Positions 19,900 to 63,495 of a stretch of 64,000 nucleotides of DNA are shown piece by piece; the stretch's first letter is position 1, and each line of letters begins with the position of its first letter. The notes below the pieces were generated by a model. The model saw only the letters and a list, made by a program, of their open reading frames with translations. It made no database searches and had not been told where the DNA came from. Position numbers and translations under genes: made by a program. Source of the stretch: a virus. The DNA lies in IMG/VR virus record IMGVR_UViG_3300042384_000288, positions 47,108 through 111,107 of that record; one strand, 5' to 3'.

Positions 19900-20538
19900 A
19901 TGCGATTATTAACAGTCGGCGACAGCTTTACCTATGGCGAAGAGTTATCTGATGCAACCAAATCTTGGCCAAATGTACTGGGTCAATATTTAGGATATGA
20001 AGTTACAAACTTAGGCCAACCAGGCAGCGGCAATACACAAATAATTAGAAAAGTAGTAGAGAATATACACAATTACGATTTAATTATTATTGCTTGGAGT
20101 CATTATGCTAGAATAGAATTTGCAGATAAAAATGGAGTATTCGACATCTGGCCAGGAGCCAATTTGGCTGTACATAATTTTCTACCTTATAGAAAAGAAC
20201 TAGTTAATTATGTAACAAAATATTATAACGATTTATATTTTTATCAACAATATCTTGTTAATATTTTGCTACTGCAGGGATATCTAGTACAGCACAAACA
20301 ACAATACCTAATGGTTAATTCTTTTGGTAATAATTGGGATGATTTTAAAGACAAAAATAATATAACACAATTAGCTGAGCAAATTGACACTAATTATTTT
20401 TTAGGATGGCCCAATGACCAAATGGTTGAATGGACATACGGATGTGCCAAAGGACCCGGTGGGCATTTCTTAGAAGACGGGCACAGAAAGGTAGCGGAAA
20501 AAATCAATGAACATATTAGGTCTTTGGGATGGATTTAA
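19900..20538 (+). CDS. SGNH/GDSL-type hydrolase-like protein
   Basis: A 212-residue paralogue of the gene at 19007: TVGDSFTYGEELSD (nucleophile Ser in GDS, residues 6-8), GQPGSGNTQI for the Gly/Asn oxyanion positions, IIAWSHYARIEF, and a C-terminal LEDGHRKVAE with the Asp-x-x-His pair. It is the most complete SGNH set of the three in the window. Expected role: esterase or acyl hydrolase acting on a modified glycan or lipid; the target is unknown. Confidence 0.75.
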   Translation: MRLLTVGDSFTYGEELSDATKSWPNVLGQYLGYEVTNLGQPGSGNTQIIRKVVENIHNYDLIIIAWSHYARIEFADKNGVFDIWPGANLAVHNFLPYRKELVNYVTKYYNDLYFYQQYLVNILLLQGYLVQHKQQYLMVNSFGNNWDDFKDKNNITQLAEQIDTNYFLGWPNDQMVEWTYGCAKGPGGHFLEDGHRKVAEKINEHIRSLGWI

Positions 20539-20689
20539 CACAGTATCCATTGTGATGTTCTTGTTTACCTTTAGCAACCTGATCACGCATTGCTGGTAAA
20601 CTTAGTTTGTGGGTTTTACAAAATTCTGCTAAATTATTGGTCTGCTCAATGTTATAATACCAATGGGTGTATTTGTTTGTTAAATACAT
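20516..20689 (-). CDS. orphan NUMOD-type DNA-binding protein (57 aa)
   Basis: A 57-residue ORF on the - strand with GGAG 9 nt before the ATG. The product begins MYLT and contains NLAEFCKTHKLSLPAM and GKQEHHNGYC, matching the helix-turn-helix of NUMOD modules in homing endonucleases, where LS, GK and HxGY are typical. No nuclease domain is present, so this is either a relic or a stand-alone DNA binder. Its leader is nearly identical to that of the GIY-YIG gene at 35451, and both proteins start MYLT. Confidence 0.65.
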   Translation of the reverse strand: MYLTNKYTHWYYNIEQTNNLAEFCKTHKLSLPAMRDQVAKGKQEHHNGYCVKSIPKT

Positions 20690-20753
20690 TTGCTGATGCT
20701 CCTTTACAAGCGTTAGAGTAGTTGGATATGTCGAGTATCGCGAACTACACTTA

Positions 20754-20761
20754 TATTTATC
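20754..20761 (-). promoter_or_regulatory. late-promoter-like GATAAATA in a shared leader
   Basis: GATAAATA on the - strand, 65 nt before the start at 20689 and at the same place in the leader as GATAAATA at 35383 on the + strand. Confidence 0.45.
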
Positions 20762-20778
20762 AAATAATTATGGAAATT

Positions 20779-22269
20779 ATGAATATTCTCGGAATTAGTG
20801 CTGGGTTTCATGACGCAGCCGCAACATTAGTTAGCAGTCAAGGTGAGATATTATTTGCTGGGCATAGCGAACGCTACAGCAAGCATAAGCACGACAGTGA
20901 CCTACACAGTGATCTAATTACAGATGCTGTTAGATACGGACGACCTGACTGTGTGGCCTACTACGAAAGACCTTGGGTCAAAAAAACTCGACAATTGTAT
21001 GCAGGACAATACAGTGAATTAAAACAAGGGTGGACTGTACGAGGAATGCTTAAACGTACAGTTCCTGAAATTAGTCACTTACCAATTACCGCATATAATC
21101 ATCACCTTAGTCATGCCGCTGCAGGATTTCAAACAAGTCCGTTTGACACTGCAGCAGTGGTAGTAATTGATGCTATAGGTGAGTGGGATACTATTAGTAT
21201 TTGGTCAGCAACGTATAACAATGCAGGTCAAGCAAAATATACTAAAGTATGGGGTCAAAAATATCCGCATAGTATTGGCCTAATGTACTCAGCTTTTACT
21301 CAGAGTGTTGGGCTCAAACCTATGGATGAAGAATATATTCTAATGGGCATGGCTGGATGGGGCAAACAACAGAATTGGTTCCAAGCTGACAATCTTAAAG
21401 CTAGCCTAATAGAAGATGAAGTAGCAATGATCTTTAAACATAATTTACATATTGGCTTGCCGGGCAAGATTAAAGGTAATTGGACTAATGAAGACACAGC
21501 ACGAGCGGCACAAGAACTTGCAGAAGATTTGATTAGCAATGTTATGCACCGTGCCAGCGAACTTGTACCAAATAGCAATTTAGTCTATTGCGGTGGTGTA
21601 GCACTTAACTGTAGTGCTAATCGTATGTTAGGAGAATACTTTGACAACATTTGGATTATGCCTAATCCTGGCGACGCTGGCAGCAGCCTTGGGGCAGCGG
21701 CCCTTAAATACGGTAAGAGATTGGTGTGGCGCGATGCTTATCTTGGCCACAATATTAGCGGGGACTATCCTGTTAGACAAATCATATCTGAACTCGTTAC
21801 TAACAAAATTGTCGGAGTTGCAAGTGGTAGGGCAGAGTTTGGACCCCGAGCCTTAGGCAATCGTAGTTTATTAGCAGACCCACGTGGTGACACAATTAAG
21901 GATCAGGTAAATGAAATCAAACGAAGACAAAAATTTAGACCATTCGCTCCAGTTATATTGGAAGAACTTGTCCATGAGTATTTTAGCATGCCTCGCAATT
22001 GGAATAGTAGCCCATATATGCAAACTGTCGCTGAGTGTCGTTATCCTGATCAGTTCCCTGCTATTGTGCATATTGATGGTACCAGCCGTGTGCAGACTGT
22101 GCCAAAAGACGGATCAGGAATAAGACAGTTATTGGAACAGTGGTACACTTGGACAGGTTGCCCTATGTTGTTAAACACTAGCTTGAACATTCGAGGAGAG
22201 CCAATGGTCAATGATCGTGCAGATGCTGACCGATTCGAGCAATTATACGGAGTTCGTGTTTTATCATGA
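20779..22269 (+). CDS. NodU/CmcH-family O-carbamoyltransferase
   Basis: About 496 residues from ATG 20779; 20770 is an alternative, and starts further upstream run into the leader of the antisense gene. MNILGISAGFHDAAATLV and the NHHLSHAAAGF block are signatures of the NodU/CmcH/TobZ family, which transfers a carbamoyl group to a sugar or antibiotic hydroxyl using carbamoyl phosphate and ATP. The C-terminal YrdC-like-associated block is present (VASGRAEFGPRALGNRSLLADPR, FRPFAPVILEE, LNTSLNIRGEPMV). Its length fits a complete enzyme. It adds to the case for an exotic sugar modification. Confidence 0.88.
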   Translation: MNILGISAGFHDAAATLVSSQGEILFAGHSERYSKHKHDSDLHSDLITDAVRYGRPDCVAYYERPWVKKTRQLYAGQYSELKQGWTVRGMLKRTVPEISHLPITAYNHHLSHAAAGFQTSPFDTAAVVVIDAIGEWDTISIWSATYNNAGQAKYTKVWGQKYPHSIGLMYSAFTQSVGLKPMDEEYILMGMAGWGKQQNWFQADNLKASLIEDEVAMIFKHNLHIGLPGKIKGNWTNEDTARAAQELAEDLISNVMHRASELVPNSNLVYCGGVALNCSANRMLGEYFDNIWIMPNPGDAGSSLGAAALKYGKRLVWRDAYLGHNISGDYPVRQIISELVTNKIVGVASGRAEFGPRALGNRSLLADPRGDTIKDQVNEIKRRQKFRPFAPVILEELVHEYFSMPRNWNSSPYMQTVAECRYPDQFPAIVHIDGTSRVQTVPKDGSGIRQLLEQWYTWTGCPMLLNTSLNIRGEPMVNDRADADRFEQLYGVRVLS

Positions 22270-35343: not shown

Positions 35344-35372
35344 ATTATAACATAGAAGTTTGGGGATGTCAA
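35344..35372 (-). promoter_or_regulatory. sigma70-type promoter
   Basis: On the - strand TTGACA (35372-35367), a 17-nt spacer and TATAAT (35349-35344), 26 nt before the start at 35317. Confidence 0.8.
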
Positions 35373-35382
35373 TTGGAGAAAT

Positions 35383-35390
35383 GATAAATA
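35383..35390 (+). promoter_or_regulatory. late-promoter-like GATAAATA in a shared leader
   Basis: GATAAATA, 7 of 8 matches to the T4 late consensus, at the head of the leader of the GIY-YIG gene. The same octamer is in the matching leader at 20754-20761. Confidence 0.45.
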
Positions 35391-35450
35391 GATGTGTAGT
35401 CCACGATATCTCACTATCCGACTACTCTAACATAAAGGACTATGTCAGCA

Positions 35451-36098
35451 ATGTATTTAACCTCACCTACCTATGCTTATGTTTATAAGTGGACAGAATT
35501 ATCAACCGGACGTTGGTATATTGGCTCACGCACCAAGCACGGATGTAACCCCGCAGATGGCTATATTTGTAGTAGTCGCATAGTCAAACCTTTAATTGAA
35601 TCCAACCAAACCAATTGGATTCGAACTGTGCTGTGCATTGGCCACGCTGTTGATATGTTAGCATTAGAGACCGCATTACTAACGCTTGCAGACGCTAAAA
35701 ACGACCCTTTGAGCTACAATCAACACAATGGTGATGGCAAGTTTACTGGATTAAACAGACCTTGTATATTTAAAGGTAAGAAACTTGGACCACAGTCAGA
35801 TGAAGCAAAAATGAAACGCTCGATTGCTCACAAAGGAAGAGTTAAGTCCGAAGAACATAAACGAAGAATTAGCGAATCTAAAAAAGGAACTGCTCCTTGG
35901 AATAAAGGTACAACAGGGTTACAAGTTGCTCACAACAAAGGCACAAGAATGTCCGAGGAACAGAAGCAGAAAATTAGAGATACTAAAAAATTAAATCCTC
36001 GACCTGCTTGGAATAAGGGAATAGCATCTACTCCTGAAGCAGAAGCTAAACGATTGGCATCACGTGCTAAAAATCGCCAAAATAAAAGCGCCATTTAA
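35451..36098 (+). CDS. GIY-YIG homing endonuclease with NUMOD3 repeats
   Basis: A 215-residue free-standing endonuclease. YAYVYKWTELSTGRWYIGSR is the GIY-YIG core in variant form, with the Arg and later Glu (ALETALL) of the nuclease. The C-terminal half is a set of NUMOD3 DNA-binding units (SDEAKMKRSIAHKGR, SEEHKRRISESKKG, SEEQKQKIRDTKK). I chose ATG 35451 (MYLT) over 35442 because the paralogous leader at 20689 keeps the sequence up to MYLT and the ribosome-site spacing is better. It stands alone on the + strand inside a - strand region, as expected for a mobile gene. Confidence 0.87.
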   Translation: MYLTSPTYAYVYKWTELSTGRWYIGSRTKHGCNPADGYICSSRIVKPLIESNQTNWIRTVLCIGHAVDMLALETALLTLADAKNDPLSYNQHNGDGKFTGLNRPCIFKGKKLGPQSDEAKMKRSIAHKGRVKSEEHKRRISESKKGTAPWNKGTTGLQVAHNKGTRMSEEQKQKIRDTKKLNPRPAWNKGIASTPEAEAKRLASRAKNRQNKSAI

Positions 36099-40805: not shown

Positions 40806-40886
40806 TTAGCCTCTAATAAAAGTACTACGCGACTTAGGAGTTTCCCACCAATCAATGCGGTCTACTGTTACGTTTAGTTTAGACAT
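40806..40886 (-). CDS. very small ORF (26 aa) overlapping queD
   Basis: A 26-residue ORF (MSKLNVTVDRIDWWETPKSR then STFIRG) whose ATG lies in the last codons of the queD-like gene, sharing 8 nt, and whose stop is 8 nt before the next start. Position and overlap suggest it is translated by coupling. Not recognised with certainty. Confidence 0.5.
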   Translation of the reverse strand: MSKLNVTVDRIDWWETPKSRSTFIRG

Positions 40887-41736
40887 TTATACCTCTGCAG
40901 GCGCCTTTACTTAATCCCTCTGAAACGAACAGGATAGTAACCCCTGCTTGTTTTAGTTGATGTTCGTATCTATCTATAACATAATCTACTAAGAATTCGA
41001 CAGTAGTTTCTGTAGTAAGTTTGACTAGTTTTACATCTCCTACAAATTCCATACTCATCGGACCGCGCCCACAATGATATTCGATTAAATTTTCAGTAGG
41101 CATGTTATCTGCCCACGCAAAGATTACGCCATCTAAGTCTCGAGCAATTTCTGCTAATAATAAATCAGTTGCTAACGTGTTTGTAGTATTGGCTGCGATA
41201 TAACTTAAATGTCCGTGACCAATATTTTGACACCCCCACGATGTAGATTCTTTTAATCCATGTACATATCTAAACATGTGTGGCATAGAGTTCAGTTGTG
41301 GCATTATATCAAAATTAGTAGTTAGAACGGTTTCTAACTCAATATCAACAGTTGGATGCTTTTTCTGTAGCGCCGATAAACAATAGTCATTGAAACTAGT
41401 TGAACTGGTAACTACTTTAACAATATTCTTTGGTCCGTAAATTTTAACTTTGGGAGTCACAATCGATACAGTGGCACCGGTAAATGTAATATTTCCTAGA
41501 GATTCTCCTTCAATCCACCATAGCTTATGATCGAATCCATCTTCGGTATCATCAATTGCTGCTTTAAGAGACTTTTTAACGGTAGAAAAATCAACTACTA
41601 CCTTTTCTACAGGATCTACTTTACCAGTTACGGTAAACTTTGGTCGGTATGACCCGCCGACTATATCACCTAAGTTATTAATATATGCGTGATCTACATT
41701 AGTAGTATCACCTAAAAACATTGAACTTTTTATCAT
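40879..41736 (-). CDS. queD: QueD-like 6-carboxytetrahydropterin synthase homologue
   Basis: A 285-residue protein; I use ATG 41736 rather than the GTG 12 nt upstream. The first 70 residues (SYRPKFTVTGKVDP, VVVDFSTVKKSLKAAI, GFDHKLWW) follow the order of PTPS/QueD enzymes: strand, VxDFxxxK, xDHxL. The C-terminal block (TTVEFLVDYVIDRYEH, VTILFVSEG) matches their TxExLA...V.V.E ending. About 130 residues with GHGHLSY are inserted between, making the protein roughly twice the usual length. QueD makes 6-carboxytetrahydropterin in 7-deazaguanine synthesis, and folE and queE lie in the same region. The assignment rests on motifs and context. Confidence 0.6.
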   Translation of the reverse strand: MIKSSMFLGDTTNVDHAYINNLGDIVGGSYRPKFTVTGKVDPVEKVVVDFSTVKKSLKAAIDDTEDGFDHKLWWIEGESLGNITFTGATVSIVTPKVKIYGPKNIVKVVTSSTSFNDYCLSALQKKHPTVDIELETVLTTNFDIMPQLNSMPHMFRYVHGLKESTSWGCQNIGHGHLSYIAANTTNTLATDLLLAEIARDLDGVIFAWADNMPTENLIEYHCGRGPMSMEFVGDVKLVKLTTETTVEFLVDYVIDRYEHQLKQAGVTILFVSEGLSKGACRGINV

Positions 41737-41863
41737 TTTCTTTCCCACCTTTTAATTGACTAATCCTCATTTTTTGTTTTGTTTCCGCTGTAATAATCTG
41801 TTTAGCTCGTGCTGCCTTTAATTTAGCTTTATGCTCTTCTGACTTTGGTTTTCCTTGTCTATT
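41708..41863 (-). pseudogene. NUMOD3 remnant of a homing endonuclease
   Basis: An open - strand frame after a TAA (41866-41864) encodes QGKPKSEEHKAKLKAARAK and KQKMRISQLKGGK, clear NUMOD3 DNA-binding units, then runs out of frame into the start of queD and stops at 41708. No nuclease domain remains. It now forms most of the queD leader, downstream of a promoter. Confidence 0.7.
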
Positions 41864-45446: not shown

Positions 45447-46304
45447 CTATTTCCCCCAAGAATTGCCCCAAAGATCAACATGTAATCTCGGACTGTAATA
45501 ATAACCTCTGCGCATAGCTTCATCTGCTATGTTAAATTTGTTGCCATCATATACACTAACAACTCCGCCCACAGGCATAACATATACTACACCTTCGACG
45601 CCTGCTGATCTATAGCAACGTACAGCGTGATCTACTTCAGCAAAGTCTGCGGGAGTTTCTACTACAAACTTAAAGCATACTGTACCAAACTCTTGATACT
45701 CTTTAACTATTGCTGGCTTAACTGCATCTTCAAACTTCTCACCTGAAGCACTTAATTTGGCACTAACACTAAATGTAATCTCACGGTGATTGGCACGTTT
45801 CCAATGATATAGATATGCTTTGAAATCCTTATGTAGTTCTTGAGTACCATTGGTCTCAAAGGTAATATTCTTTAGGTCACGCATACTTTCATGTTCTAAT
45901 AGTTCTTCGTAGCTACGTTGCCAACCTAATAAGGGCTCACCGCCTGTGATAACCAAGTGTACATCGTTACCGTTACACTGTTGCCAACGGTTATTAGGAG
46001 TTAGTGCCAACATAGCATCAACTACAGCACTGGTTTCTAATATTGGACTCAGATGTTTAAACTTAGGATGCCACGCCGCATAGCTGTCACAACCTGTATT
46101 GACCAAAGGTAAGTCTTCATATCTGTTGTACAATTCTACAGTTTTAGCAACTTCATCAGCCTCTGCACTGGCTGTGCCTCTGACCATACCAAATCCGCTA
46201 CAGGTAAAGTTACAGCCAAATGTACGTAAGAAAACTGAAGGAACACCTACATAGCGTCCTTCACCTTGTGCTGAATAAAATATTTCACTGACTTTAAGTT
46301 TCAT
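45447..46304 (-). CDS. queE: 7-carboxy-7-deazaguanine synthase
   Basis: A 285-residue radical SAM enzyme of the QueE family: SEIFYSAQGEGRYVGVPSVFLR at the start, GCNFTCSGFG, TGGEPLLGW and FETNGTQ. QueE contracts 6-carboxytetrahydropterin to 7-carboxy-7-deazaguanine. The cluster motif is abnormal: Cys31 and Cys35 are in place, but the third position of CxxxCxxC is Phe38. The next cysteine is Cys72 (NTGCDSY) after an insert of about 35 residues and may be the third ligand. It overlaps the MazG-like gene by 11 nt; folE is 1.2 kb upstream in the same unit. Confidence 0.87.
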   Translation of the reverse strand: MKLKVSEIFYSAQGEGRYVGVPSVFLRTFGCNFTCSGFGMVRGTASAEADEVAKTVELYNRYEDLPLVNTGCDSYAAWHPKFKHLSPILETSAVVDAMLALTPNNRWQQCNGNDVHLVITGGEPLLGWQRSYEELLEHESMRDLKNITFETNGTQELHKDFKAYLYHWKRANHREITFSVSAKLSASGEKFEDAVKPAIVKEYQEFGTVCFKFVVETPADFAEVDHAVRCYRSAGVEGVVYVMPVGGVVSVYDGNKFNIADEAMRRGYYYSPRLHVDLWGNSWGK

Positions 46305-46569
46305 ATAATTTTGACCATATTTTTAGTTTTTCAATCTTGTTTAATTTAGCTGTGTTTAAGTTATTTAGGTCAACAACGCCTTGCTCAATTAAAATATCTA
46401 CTAGAGCTAACATATCGCCAATTTCCATTTCTAAGTTGGCTCGCTGTGTATTACCAGATTTATGAGCGTTATCTAGGCCAAAACGATAGATCTTACTAGC
46501 TGCTTGTATTACTTCAGCGCACTCTTCTTGTAAAATGATCAATGCTTCTTGTGTTTTGTTAGCAATCAT
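46294..46569 (-). CDS. MazG-like nucleotide pyrophosphohydrolase
   Basis: A 91-residue all-helical protein from ATG 46569, overlapping the upstream stop as TAATG. LQEECAEVIQAASKIYRFG and LEMEIGDMLALVDIL are the ExxE...ExxD metal motifs of MazG/dUTPase-type pyrophosphohydrolases. It would hydrolyse a (d)NTP, perhaps removing unmodified nucleotides or lowering (p)ppGpp. It lies in the same unit as folE and queE, so acting on a purine nucleotide is plausible but unproven. Confidence 0.75.
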   Translation of the reverse strand: MIANKTQEALIILQEECAEVIQAASKIYRFGLDNAHKSGNTQRANLEMEIGDMLALVDILIEQGVVDLNNLNTAKLNKIEKLKIWSKLYET

Positions 46570-47126
46570 TATCTTTCCCAAGGGTAAACAATCCACGTAT
46601 CCTGTTCTGCTTTGTTGATTTCTTTAGCTGAATAATCCACTTGACGACTAAAATTGCTACTTAGGTTATCAATTAACACAGCAAAACGCACATTGTTACC
46701 CCAGATGTCTGCCCAGTTTGGATCGTTCGGCAAACATGATTGTTGCCAATCTTGAATAATCCAATCTAATGTAGCACCTGTGTCATTGATATCATCTAAG
46801 ATCAGTATGTTTTTACGCAGTGCAGGATCACTAGTGGCTTCTCCTTCTAGGCGAGGGTAACTAGCAGCACTAACATAACCAAATGCATCTTCGGCCATCC
46901 AAAGATTACTCTCTGGACCGTTATCACTATCACGTAGACTAACCTTTAAAGTCTCCATTGGGATATGATAGAGATTGCTCATAACAACTGCTGGAATCAA
47001 TCCACCGCGGGTAAGACCAACAACGTAGTCTGGACGCCAGTTGTCCTTATACATTTGAGATACAATATTACTAACCATATCGTGTATGTGTAGATATTCG
47101 TAATACTTTTTTTCAACATTATTCAT
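46569..47126 (-). CDS. purine-type phosphoribosyltransferase
   Basis: A 185-residue type I phosphoribosyltransferase: DYVVGLTRGGLIPAVVMSN with the PPi loop and ILILDDINDTGATLDWI with the PRPP-binding loop. The closest relatives are guanine/xanthine/hypoxanthine enzymes. In a unit with folE, queE and MazG it may salvage a purine or act on a deazapurine base. It overlaps the gene before it by 4 nt. Confidence 0.8.
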   Translation of the reverse strand: MNNVEKKYYEYLHIHDMVSNIVSQMYKDNWRPDYVVGLTRGGLIPAVVMSNLYHIPMETLKVSLRDSDNGPESNLWMAEDAFGYVSAASYPRLEGEATSDPALRKNILILDDINDTGATLDWIIQDWQQSCLPNDPNWADIWGNNVRFAVLIDNLSSNFSRQVDYSAKEINKAEQDTWIVYPWER

Positions 47127-47458
47127 CGCAAATACTCCATGGTAACAATTTTACTTAATGATTCAGCAAAGTCTGCGTTCTCATCAATGATGTACAGCTT
47201 AACACGTTCTTGATCATGCTTGTCATTGTAGCGACCAGCTTCAACAATCTTTCCACCACTTGCTCCGTACACTTTAAATGAAATAACACTGTCATCATCG
47301 TAGTTATGTGATACACGTTGTTGTTGCTTAATTGGGCTACCGCCCCCGCCACCACTAGTCCATTTTCGAGATCTAACTTGTTTGGGTTCTGCCACCGCCA
47401 TATCTTCTAATTCGTATTGCCATTTATGTGCTAAACGTATTAACCATCTCTTAAACAT
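47123..47458 (-). CDS. small conserved phage protein
   Basis: A 111-residue protein from ATG 47458, which has AAAGGA upstream and follows the folE stop by 10 nt. A basic start (MFKRWLIRLAHKW) is followed by a linker with WTSGGGGGSP and a C-terminal beta-rich domain (ISFKVYGASGGKIVEAGRY, LYIIDENADFAESLSKIV). The C-terminal domain is familiar from T4-like phages. Function unknown. Confidence 0.65.
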   Translation of the reverse strand: MFKRWLIRLAHKWQYELEDMAVAEPKQVRSRKWTSGGGGGSPIKQQQRVSHNYDDDSVISFKVYGASGGKIVEAGRYNDKHDQERVKLYIIDENADFAESLSKIVTMEYLR

Positions 47459-47468
47459 AACTATTCCT

Positions 47469-48152
47469 TTATCGAACCTTGCAACTATTGACAATATTCA
47501 TAAACTCTGCACGTACACTTGGGTCAGTTTTAAAACAACCGCCAAGTTTTGATGTAACTGTTGAACTTCCTACATCCTCTACACCCCGCGACTTAACGCA
47601 ATAATGTTGTGCATCTAATACAACCCCAATATGATCTGTTTCGAGAATGTATTGTAGTGCGTGATAAATTTGTTCAGTTAATCGTTCTTGTATTTGCGGA
47701 CGCTTGCTAAAATATTCGACTACACGATTAATTTTACTTAATCCTAACACTTTATGATTCGGAATATAACCTACTGTAGCCAACCCATCAATAACAACAA
47801 AGTGATGTTCACAATTTGATTGGACATTGACATTGCGTTCAATTACCATCTCATCGTATTTCATTTTGTTTTCTACTGTGGTGCACTTTGGAAATGCTTC
47901 GTAATCGAGTCCCCAAAATATTTCGTTAACATACATTTTAGCTACTCGCTTAGGGGTTTCGATTAAACTGTCGTCAGTTAAATCTAATCCTAATGTCTGC
48001 ATTATTGAAGTAAAATGTTGTTCAATTTTATCGATTTTATCTTTACGATCGATATTGTTAGATATGGTTGGCGTTTCTACGCCCATTTTAATCAAATGTT
48101 CGTGTACTGCTTGTCCTAAGACTGGATCTGTTTTTGTTTTGTTGTATGACAT
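47469..48152 (-). CDS. folE: GTP cyclohydrolase I
   Basis: A 227-residue FolE. IETPKRVAKMYVNEIFWG, SNCEHHFVVIDG (zinc Cys and catalytic His pair), KVLGLSKINRVVEYFSKRPQIQERLTEQI and VLDAQHYCVKSRGVED (second zinc Cys) are all present. The enzyme opens GTP to 7,8-dihydroneopterin triphosphate, the first step to 7-deazaguanines and to folate. With queD-like, queE and a dpdA-like gene nearby the deazaguanine role is favoured. AAGGAAGG precedes the ATG; a 140-nt structured leader separates it from its promoter. Confidence 0.93.
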   Translation of the reverse strand: MSYNKTKTDPVLGQAVHEHLIKMGVETPTISNNIDRKDKIDKIEQHFTSIMQTLGLDLTDDSLIETPKRVAKMYVNEIFWGLDYEAFPKCTTVENKMKYDEMVIERNVNVQSNCEHHFVVIDGLATVGYIPNHKVLGLSKINRVVEYFSKRPQIQERLTEQIYHALQYILETDHIGVVLDAQHYCVKSRGVEDVGSSTVTSKLGGCFKTDPSVRAEFMNIVNSCKVR

Positions 48153-63397: not shown

Positions 63398-63439
63398 AGT
63401 CAATCCACGTATTCTTGCTCACTTTTGGCATCCCTCCAG

Positions 63440-63492
63440 GCCAGCAGCCGGCCACACTATACCGTCCTAAGACGGCCCTAAGGTAGGAGTGT
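63440..63492. other. structured intergenic element with 23S rRNA-like motif
   Basis: A GC-rich island. GGCC-7-GGCC at 63439-63452 is followed by ACTATA (63456-63461), a perfect hairpin CCGTC-CTAA-GACGG (63462-63475), a second small hairpin CCTA-AGG-TAGG (63477-63487) and a closing pair ACACT/AGTGT (63454-63458 with 63488-63492). The segment 63472-63486 differs by one base from the ACGGTCCTAAGGTAG motif of bacterial 23S rRNA domain IV. Function unknown. Confidence 0.5.
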
Positions 63493-63495
63493 TCT

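Follow-up and report, generated by a model that had tools for sequence, protein, structure and literature searches.

Two homing-endonuclease genes of one phage genome are headed by strikingly similar DNA, which raises the question of what this shared leader is and why it is kept. Both genes lie in a 64,000-nucleotide stretch of IMG/VR virus record IMGVR_UViG_3300042384_000288 (positions 47,108 to 111,107), henceforth called the window, to which all coordinates refer. In a sequence-only reading, the leaders of a minus-strand gene (20516-20689) and a plus-strand GIY-YIG gene (start at 35451) had been called almost identical, with a common start peptide, and had been attributed either to one mobile ancestor or to a transferable expression cassette with a late promoter.

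Two leaders in the window

In an 87-column alignment, 20762-20679 (-) and 35382-35461 (+) were 79.3% identical with few small gaps. The local score of 76 exceeded that of 2000 dinucleotide-preserving shuffles (16.8 ± 2.5, maximum 36) by a wide margin, so that the likeness itself stands, although "almost identical" overstates an identity of 79%. A third copy was absent from the window and from the remainder of the 111,107-base record, both of which were searched. The features of the first copy (copy A) are the following:

20681-20759, +: whole element, copy A; this strand is the structured one and runs antisense to the remnant of the endonuclease (82.8 bits with model R2, E 2.7e-18)
20680-20686, +: outward box TTAAATA, late-promoter-like, directed towards the carbamoyltransferase gene (predicted promoter)
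20693-20716, +: hairpin 1 (P3), CTGATGCT / AGCGTTAG, 8 bp
20717, +: lone unpaired A separating the hairpins
20718-20748, +: hairpin 2 (P2), GTAGTT-G-GATA / TATC-GCG-AACTAC
20754-20759, -: inward box TAAATA, late-promoter-like, directed into the endonuclease (predicted promoter)
20516-20689, -: what is left of an HNH-type homing endonuclease, 57 aa (an intact relative was matched by tblastn at E 5.9e-5)

Model R1, which was run on the other strand, scored copy A at 84.6 bits. The loop of its hairpin 1 is the complement of the Shine-Dalgarno sequence, and its outward box lies at the same place in most other copies. In the remnant, the N-terminal 14 aa are fused in frame to a C-terminal helix-turn-helix-like piece, and its match to PHROGs was weak (phrog_2081, E 0.011). 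A carbamoyltransferase gene (20722-22269, +; phrog_1601, E 4.4e-97) follows directly when copy A is read along its structured strand. For the second copy (copy B), the features are:

35385-35459, -: whole element, copy B; again the structured strand is the one that runs antisense to the endonuclease (71.4 bits with model R2, E 2.4e-15)
35427-35448, -: hairpin 1 (P3)
35396-35425, -: hairpin 2 (P2), GTAGTC / GACTAC
35385-35390, +: inward box TAAATA, 5 nt ahead of the core
35442-36098, +: homing endonuclease of the GIY-YIG type carrying a NUMOD3 motif, with 35442 and 35451 as alternative starts
35344-35372, -: perfect sigma70-type promoter TTGACA-17-TATAAT (from sequence and comparison with the empty site in contig L194)

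Relative to copy A, the P2 stem of copy B carries a compensatory change. The endonuclease behind copy B matched NUMOD3 (E 1.3e-6) and the homing-endonuclease family phrog_314 (E 9e-24); an in-frame ATG is also present at 35442 (MSAMYLT), and the Shine-Dalgarno spacing is better for 35451. A single ancestral endonuclease for both genes, as proposed initially, finds no support in their types, the N-terminus of 20516-20689 being HNH-type and 35442-36098 belonging to the GIY-YIG/NUMOD3 type. An empty site for copy B was found in L194, where the neighbouring protein is 88% identical and the spacer measures 44 nt, versus ~820 nt in the window, which are taken up by the antisense endonuclease, the element, and the TTGACA-17-TATAAT promoter pointing out of the insert into the host gene 35317-35012 (-).

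A module ahead of many endonuclease genes

Searching viral contigs with a 16-base leader pattern yielded at least 118 stretches, most of which had the whole leader immediately ahead of a start codon, and two further patterns added more. From 386 loci, 226 elements (220 distinct cores) of a ~75-nt module were extracted. All 24 element-bearing records searched with covariance model R1 carried between 1 and 13 copies. Very large phages were rich in copies, two of them (G018 and G021) having 13 each and thus offering a natural variant series per genome; loci L130, L139, and L160 belong to one 328-kb contig among these phages.

The module sits directly upstream of phage homing-endonuclease genes (HEGs) of the GIY-YIG and several HNH kinds. 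Complete downstream ORFs reached at least 120 aa in 189 of 204 cases. Pfam searches on 59 sampled downstream ORFs returned NUMOD3 (22), HNH (15), HNH_5 (11), HNH_3 (6), GIY-YIG (3), and SegE (3), PHROGs returned homing-endonuclease families, and by these domain matches the downstream nucleases are of unrelated folds. Twelve of the 14 short downstream ORFs, 20516-20689 among them, were decayed endonucleases with frameshifts or internal deletions. Miniature endonuclease ORFs of 48–57 aa were observed in L027, L374, and at 20516-20689, where the N-terminus and a C-terminal DNA-binding piece are joined in frame and the nuclease domain is lost; they are perhaps chance remnants or small DNA-binding regulators.

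In two contig pairs (L015/L053 and L122/L127), flank and leader are alike up to the start codon and are followed by unrelated endonucleases, by which comparison HEG bodies are shown to be exchanged at the edge of the module. The earlier suggestion of a transferable leader is borne out by these pairs and by the many unrelated endonuclease genes that it heads. The same does not hold for the shared start peptide. Both ORFs of the window encode MYLT, but the underlying TATTTA was spread over the three frames counted from the ATG (24, 12, and 23 cases among the first 61 elements; 38, 27, and 141 in the full set), and its distance of ~5 nt to CAGC was kept when the start codon lay 8–18 nt upstream of CAGC. 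Because TATTTA is conserved in frames 0, 1, and 2 and remains fixed when the start codon moves, a selected peptide was rejected and MYLT is regarded as a by-product.

A comparable element was not found at the 3′ ends of the HEGs, where no 8-mer was common to more than 6 of 102 sequences. Another intergenic sequence that recurs and appears to be structured, with inverted repeats nested in one another and a conserved CCTAAGG (e.g., GGCCAGCAGCCGGCCACACTATACCGTCCTAAGACGGCCCTAAGGTAGGAGTGT), was observed at 63404-63495 (+) of the window, and likewise in L001 (~6065), L011 (~11887, -), L023 (~6147), L025 (~537), L097 (~9395, -), L118 (~3665, -), and L124 (~6656, -), in several loci immediately after an endonuclease gene; it had no match in Rfam. 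The window also encodes QueE-like, GTP cyclohydrolase, and QueD-like genes (45447-48152, -, and 40879-41748, -), the combination of which suggests a 7-deazaguanine DNA modification pathway.

The core as a two-hairpin fold on the antisense strand

On the strand antisense to the HEG, the plan of the element comprises a box, ~5 nt, a G, an 8-bp hairpin (CUG-N5 / N5-UAG), a single A, a second hairpin (6-bp stem, G opposite GYG, 3–4-bp stem, loop), ~5 nt, and another box; the core, flanked by the two spacers, measures ~60 nt. In sense orientation the core reads GTAGTT-CNC-GATA..TATC-C-AACTAC-TCTA-[P3]-CAGC, and its covariation is strong. For inner P2, 22 stem types were found in 76 distinct sequences, with 289 of 304 cells paired against a permutation maximum of 232, and the two sides of P3 vary in step too. 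When the antisense structure was evaluated on 35 diverse sequences, 95.0% of the cells were paired, 15 of 19 pairs had changes on both sides, and the covariation score was 0.626 (shuffled, 0.227), while slid versions of the structure reached at most 51% paired cells. Two-sided helix changes with pairing kept amounted to 146 cells in these sequences; loops, junction, and boxes were fixed. Distant copies swap the entire outer stem (GTGAGT/ACTCAC, GCGGGC/GCCCGC, GTCAGT/ACTGAC, and others) and retain the plan.

The strand was assigned from wobble pairs and folding energies. Across all elements, 2063 cells were Watson–Crick pairs, 170 were G-U pairs on the antisense strand only, and 4 were G-U pairs on the sense strand only; almost all non-Watson–Crick exceptions appeared as A-C or C-A in the sense orientation, i.e., as G-U on the complementary strand. 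The antisense strand was the more stable one in 205 of 220 cores, folding yielded −16.5 kcal/mol (z −3.1) for antisense and −11.0 kcal/mol (z −0.9) for sense, and P3 was formed in 89 of 110 cores on the antisense strand versus 32 of 110 on the sense strand. Covariation and predicted folding thus show that a fold of two hairpins is conserved in the core, on the strand that runs antisense to the HEG, and we hold it to be all but certain that the element as described is real in structure, strand, and association. This structured strand and the second, inverted ATAAATA box go beyond what had been noticed initially. The two boxes are complementary and might form a further helix (P1), which was not counted as they are too invariant for covariation, and no clear terminator follows the second hairpin.

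BLASTN of the element against 50,697 isolate phages gave no match, and GTDB genomes gave a single weak one (L121, E 0.0016) that was judged to be chance. One cultured copy was reached only via the HEG and model R2, after that BLASTN search: tblastn with one element-linked endonuclease led to Pseudoalteromonas phage vB_Psh_XG4, in which GCTAAT-CGC-GGTA..TACC-C-ATTAGC-TGTA-GAATT..GAATTC lies immediately ahead of the endonuclease gene and adopts the same two-hairpin plan when the antisense strand is folded. Model R2, built without this copy, detected it at E 5.1e-7, and nothing else in the 158 kb was significant (next best, 0.12). Against T4, three cyanophages, and two Vibrio phages, R2 gave nothing below E 0.3. 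Rfam 15 had no match to the window at the gathering cut-off and none overlapping the element at E ≤ 5 in four element loci; around copy A, unrelated chance matches only were returned (E 1.2–7.5).

Inverted late-promoter-like boxes

In T4 promoter geometry, a 5-nt spacer sets the +1 position. The inward ATAAATA was located exactly 5 nt ahead of the core in 188 of 224 elements and the outward, inverted ATAAATA at 4–6 nt in 207 of 224 (5 nt in 149, 4 nt in 32, 6 nt in 26), with a T at −1 in 98% (inward) and 96% (outward). From this spacer, +1 is inferred to be the G with which the core begins. When the start codon shifts 8–18 nt upstream of CAGC, the position of the outward box is unchanged.

T4 late promoters have the sequence TATAAATA (PMC3014915). 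The box logo of the element is TATAAATA-like, and the late sigma factor gp55 is encoded by the phage of the window (phrog_234, E 4.8e-24), by 12 of 24 other element-bearing records (among them every one of the ten that measure 178 kb or more), and by vB_Psh_XG4. TAAATA was found upstream of window ORFs 14 times in sense and 2 times in antisense orientation; the sense count lies only at the edge of the shuffle range (mean 7.2, maximum 14 in 200 shuffles). The late promoter postulated for the leader is therefore a likely T4-type box with inferred promoter activity, and the inverted pair would fit convergent T4-type late promoters.

Proposed antisense control and alternative explanations

As in the IS10 RNA-OUT type, the strand comparison and the folding found a predicted RNA fold encoded opposite the region in which the mobile gene starts. 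IS10 RNA-OUT is a 69-nt RNA antisense to the transposase start region that causes multicopy inhibition (PMC5006887), and a review on T4 states that endonucleases, on invasion, may supply promoters or give rise to antisense transcripts (PMC2988022). We tentatively favour an analogous control for the element, as a plausible reading that falls short of being probable. Each box would act as a T4-type late promoter starting at the core-opening G, so that two convergent transcripts would overlap over exactly the core, the inward one being the HEG mRNA and the outward one beginning with the folded RNA. The outward RNA would then base-pair with the leader of the HEG mRNA, Shine-Dalgarno sequence included, and limit endonuclease production as copies build up, like RNA-OUT of IS10 on the transposase. 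Where the HEG is antisense to its neighbours, which is the commoner orientation, outward transcription might also feed the next host gene.

Antisense pairing alone would leave the invariant CUG/UAG pairs, the single A, and the G/GYG loop unexplained, and these suggest a binding partner. For that reason, a protein-binding (put-like) or a DNA-level role is kept alongside antisense control. It is possible, if somewhat doubtful, that the module represents a new class of structured phage RNA opposite HEGs whose invariant junction and loop bind one particular partner, be it RNA polymerase, a nuclease, or some other phage factor, and which serves as an exchangeable control cassette for unrelated endonucleases.

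One such partner would be RNA polymerase acted on in cis by the outward RNA, as by HK022 put, such that terminators and pauses are passed and host genes beyond the insert are reached. The put RNA has ~70 nt and two stem-loops and lies just downstream of PL (PMC9378689), an architecture that the element resembles by eye (two hairpins with one nucleotide between them, ~60–75 nt, at a predicted 5′ end), and the invariant internal loop and linker would suit a protein partner. HEGs are also oftener antisense than sense to both neighbours (61 vs 35, p 0.01), so that outward is usually host-sense. However, neither R1 nor R2 matched the HK022 genome (NC_002166), and in sense insertions, where the outward RNA opposes the upstream gene, the structure and the outward box are equally well retained. 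Their equal retention in both orientations indicates that they belong to the HEG unit, and a structure serving the host operon mRNA only was not favoured. We consider the put-like action unlikely.

A translational switch on the sense strand, of the T4 I-TevI type, is less likely still. Read-through mRNA would hide the ribosome-binding site, and late-promoter transcripts without the 5′ half would be translated. Sense-strand hairpins are documented for I-TevI, segB, and mobE (PMC2988022, PMC3014915), and in the element the inward box is complementary to TATTTA and the Shine-Dalgarno sequence lies within hairpin P3. Against this, the sense fold is scarcely better than shuffles (z −0.9, versus −3.1 for antisense), P3 forms in 32 rather than 89 of 110 cores, sense-only G-U cells number 4 as opposed to 170, and start codons occur at several positions relative to the structure. 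As a selected structure, the sense-strand switch was not favoured.

To a similarly small degree, the fold might act as DNA, with hairpins in single-stranded or extruded antisense DNA being read by a recombination or replication protein and the module forming a recombination border that allows HEG swaps. The exchange of HEG bodies at its 3′ edge would agree with this, and a single-stranded DNA fold would give the same covariation as an RNA fold, including the G-T wobble. The promoter-like spacing of the inverted boxes, the HEG ribosome-binding site embedded in the core, and the lack of a matching element at gene 3′ ends speak against it. Mere recent spread of HEG, promoter, and a functionless leader deserves next to no credit, even though the module is multicopy and is retained by decayed HEGs, since its helices change on both sides and stay paired (146 cells in 35 sequences) while loops, junction, and boxes are fixed, and neutral copies would not behave so.

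Relation to known systems and meaning

With RNA-IN/RNA-OUT of IS10/Tn10, the element shares convergent promoters (here predicted) at the 5′ end of a mobile nuclease gene and a folded antisense RNA of ~70 nt (likewise predicted) over the start region, and both systems are multicopy; it differs in its late-promoter rather than sigma70 boxes, its two hairpins, its unrelated nuclease families, and the lack of an Rfam match. The T4 HEG leaders (I-TevI, I-TevII, I-TevIII, segB, and Aeh1 mobE) are alike in belonging to HEGs of T4-type phages and in combining a late promoter with structured RNA close to the start codon. They fold on the sense mRNA, hiding the ribosome-binding site, whereas the element is set apart by the strand comparison (170 vs 4 G-U cells) as folding on the antisense strand and is a single conserved module common to a large number of unrelated HEGs. 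HK022 putL/putR likewise consist of two stem-loops, span about 70 nt, and lie at a phage promoter start or close to it; unlike them, the element is always tied to HEGs and shows no covariance-model similarity, and antitermination by it is only conjectural. HEARO and the omega RNA of IscB resemble it as structured RNAs beside an HNH-type mobile gene, but their size and structure differ from those of the element, which lies on the antisense strand, has ordinary GIY-YIG/HNH HEGs as partners, and matches nothing in Rfam.

No paper describing the element was found in a literature search that covered few subscription journals. As an RNA, predicted from its conserved fold, it is a new family without Rfam match, and its working principle is most likely a novel form of the antisense control exerted on mobile genes. 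In T4-type phages, free-standing homing endonucleases rank with the commonest selfish genes. The way in which the expression of each such newcomer is fitted into the programme of its host is a question that, if the proposed control is true, would find a general answer in one travelling module with two-way promoters and a folded RNA from the antisense strand. The cultured phage vB_Psh_XG4 carries the module and thereby makes it testable now, and in metagenomes this RNA family, absent from Rfam, provides a mark for mobile endonucleases.
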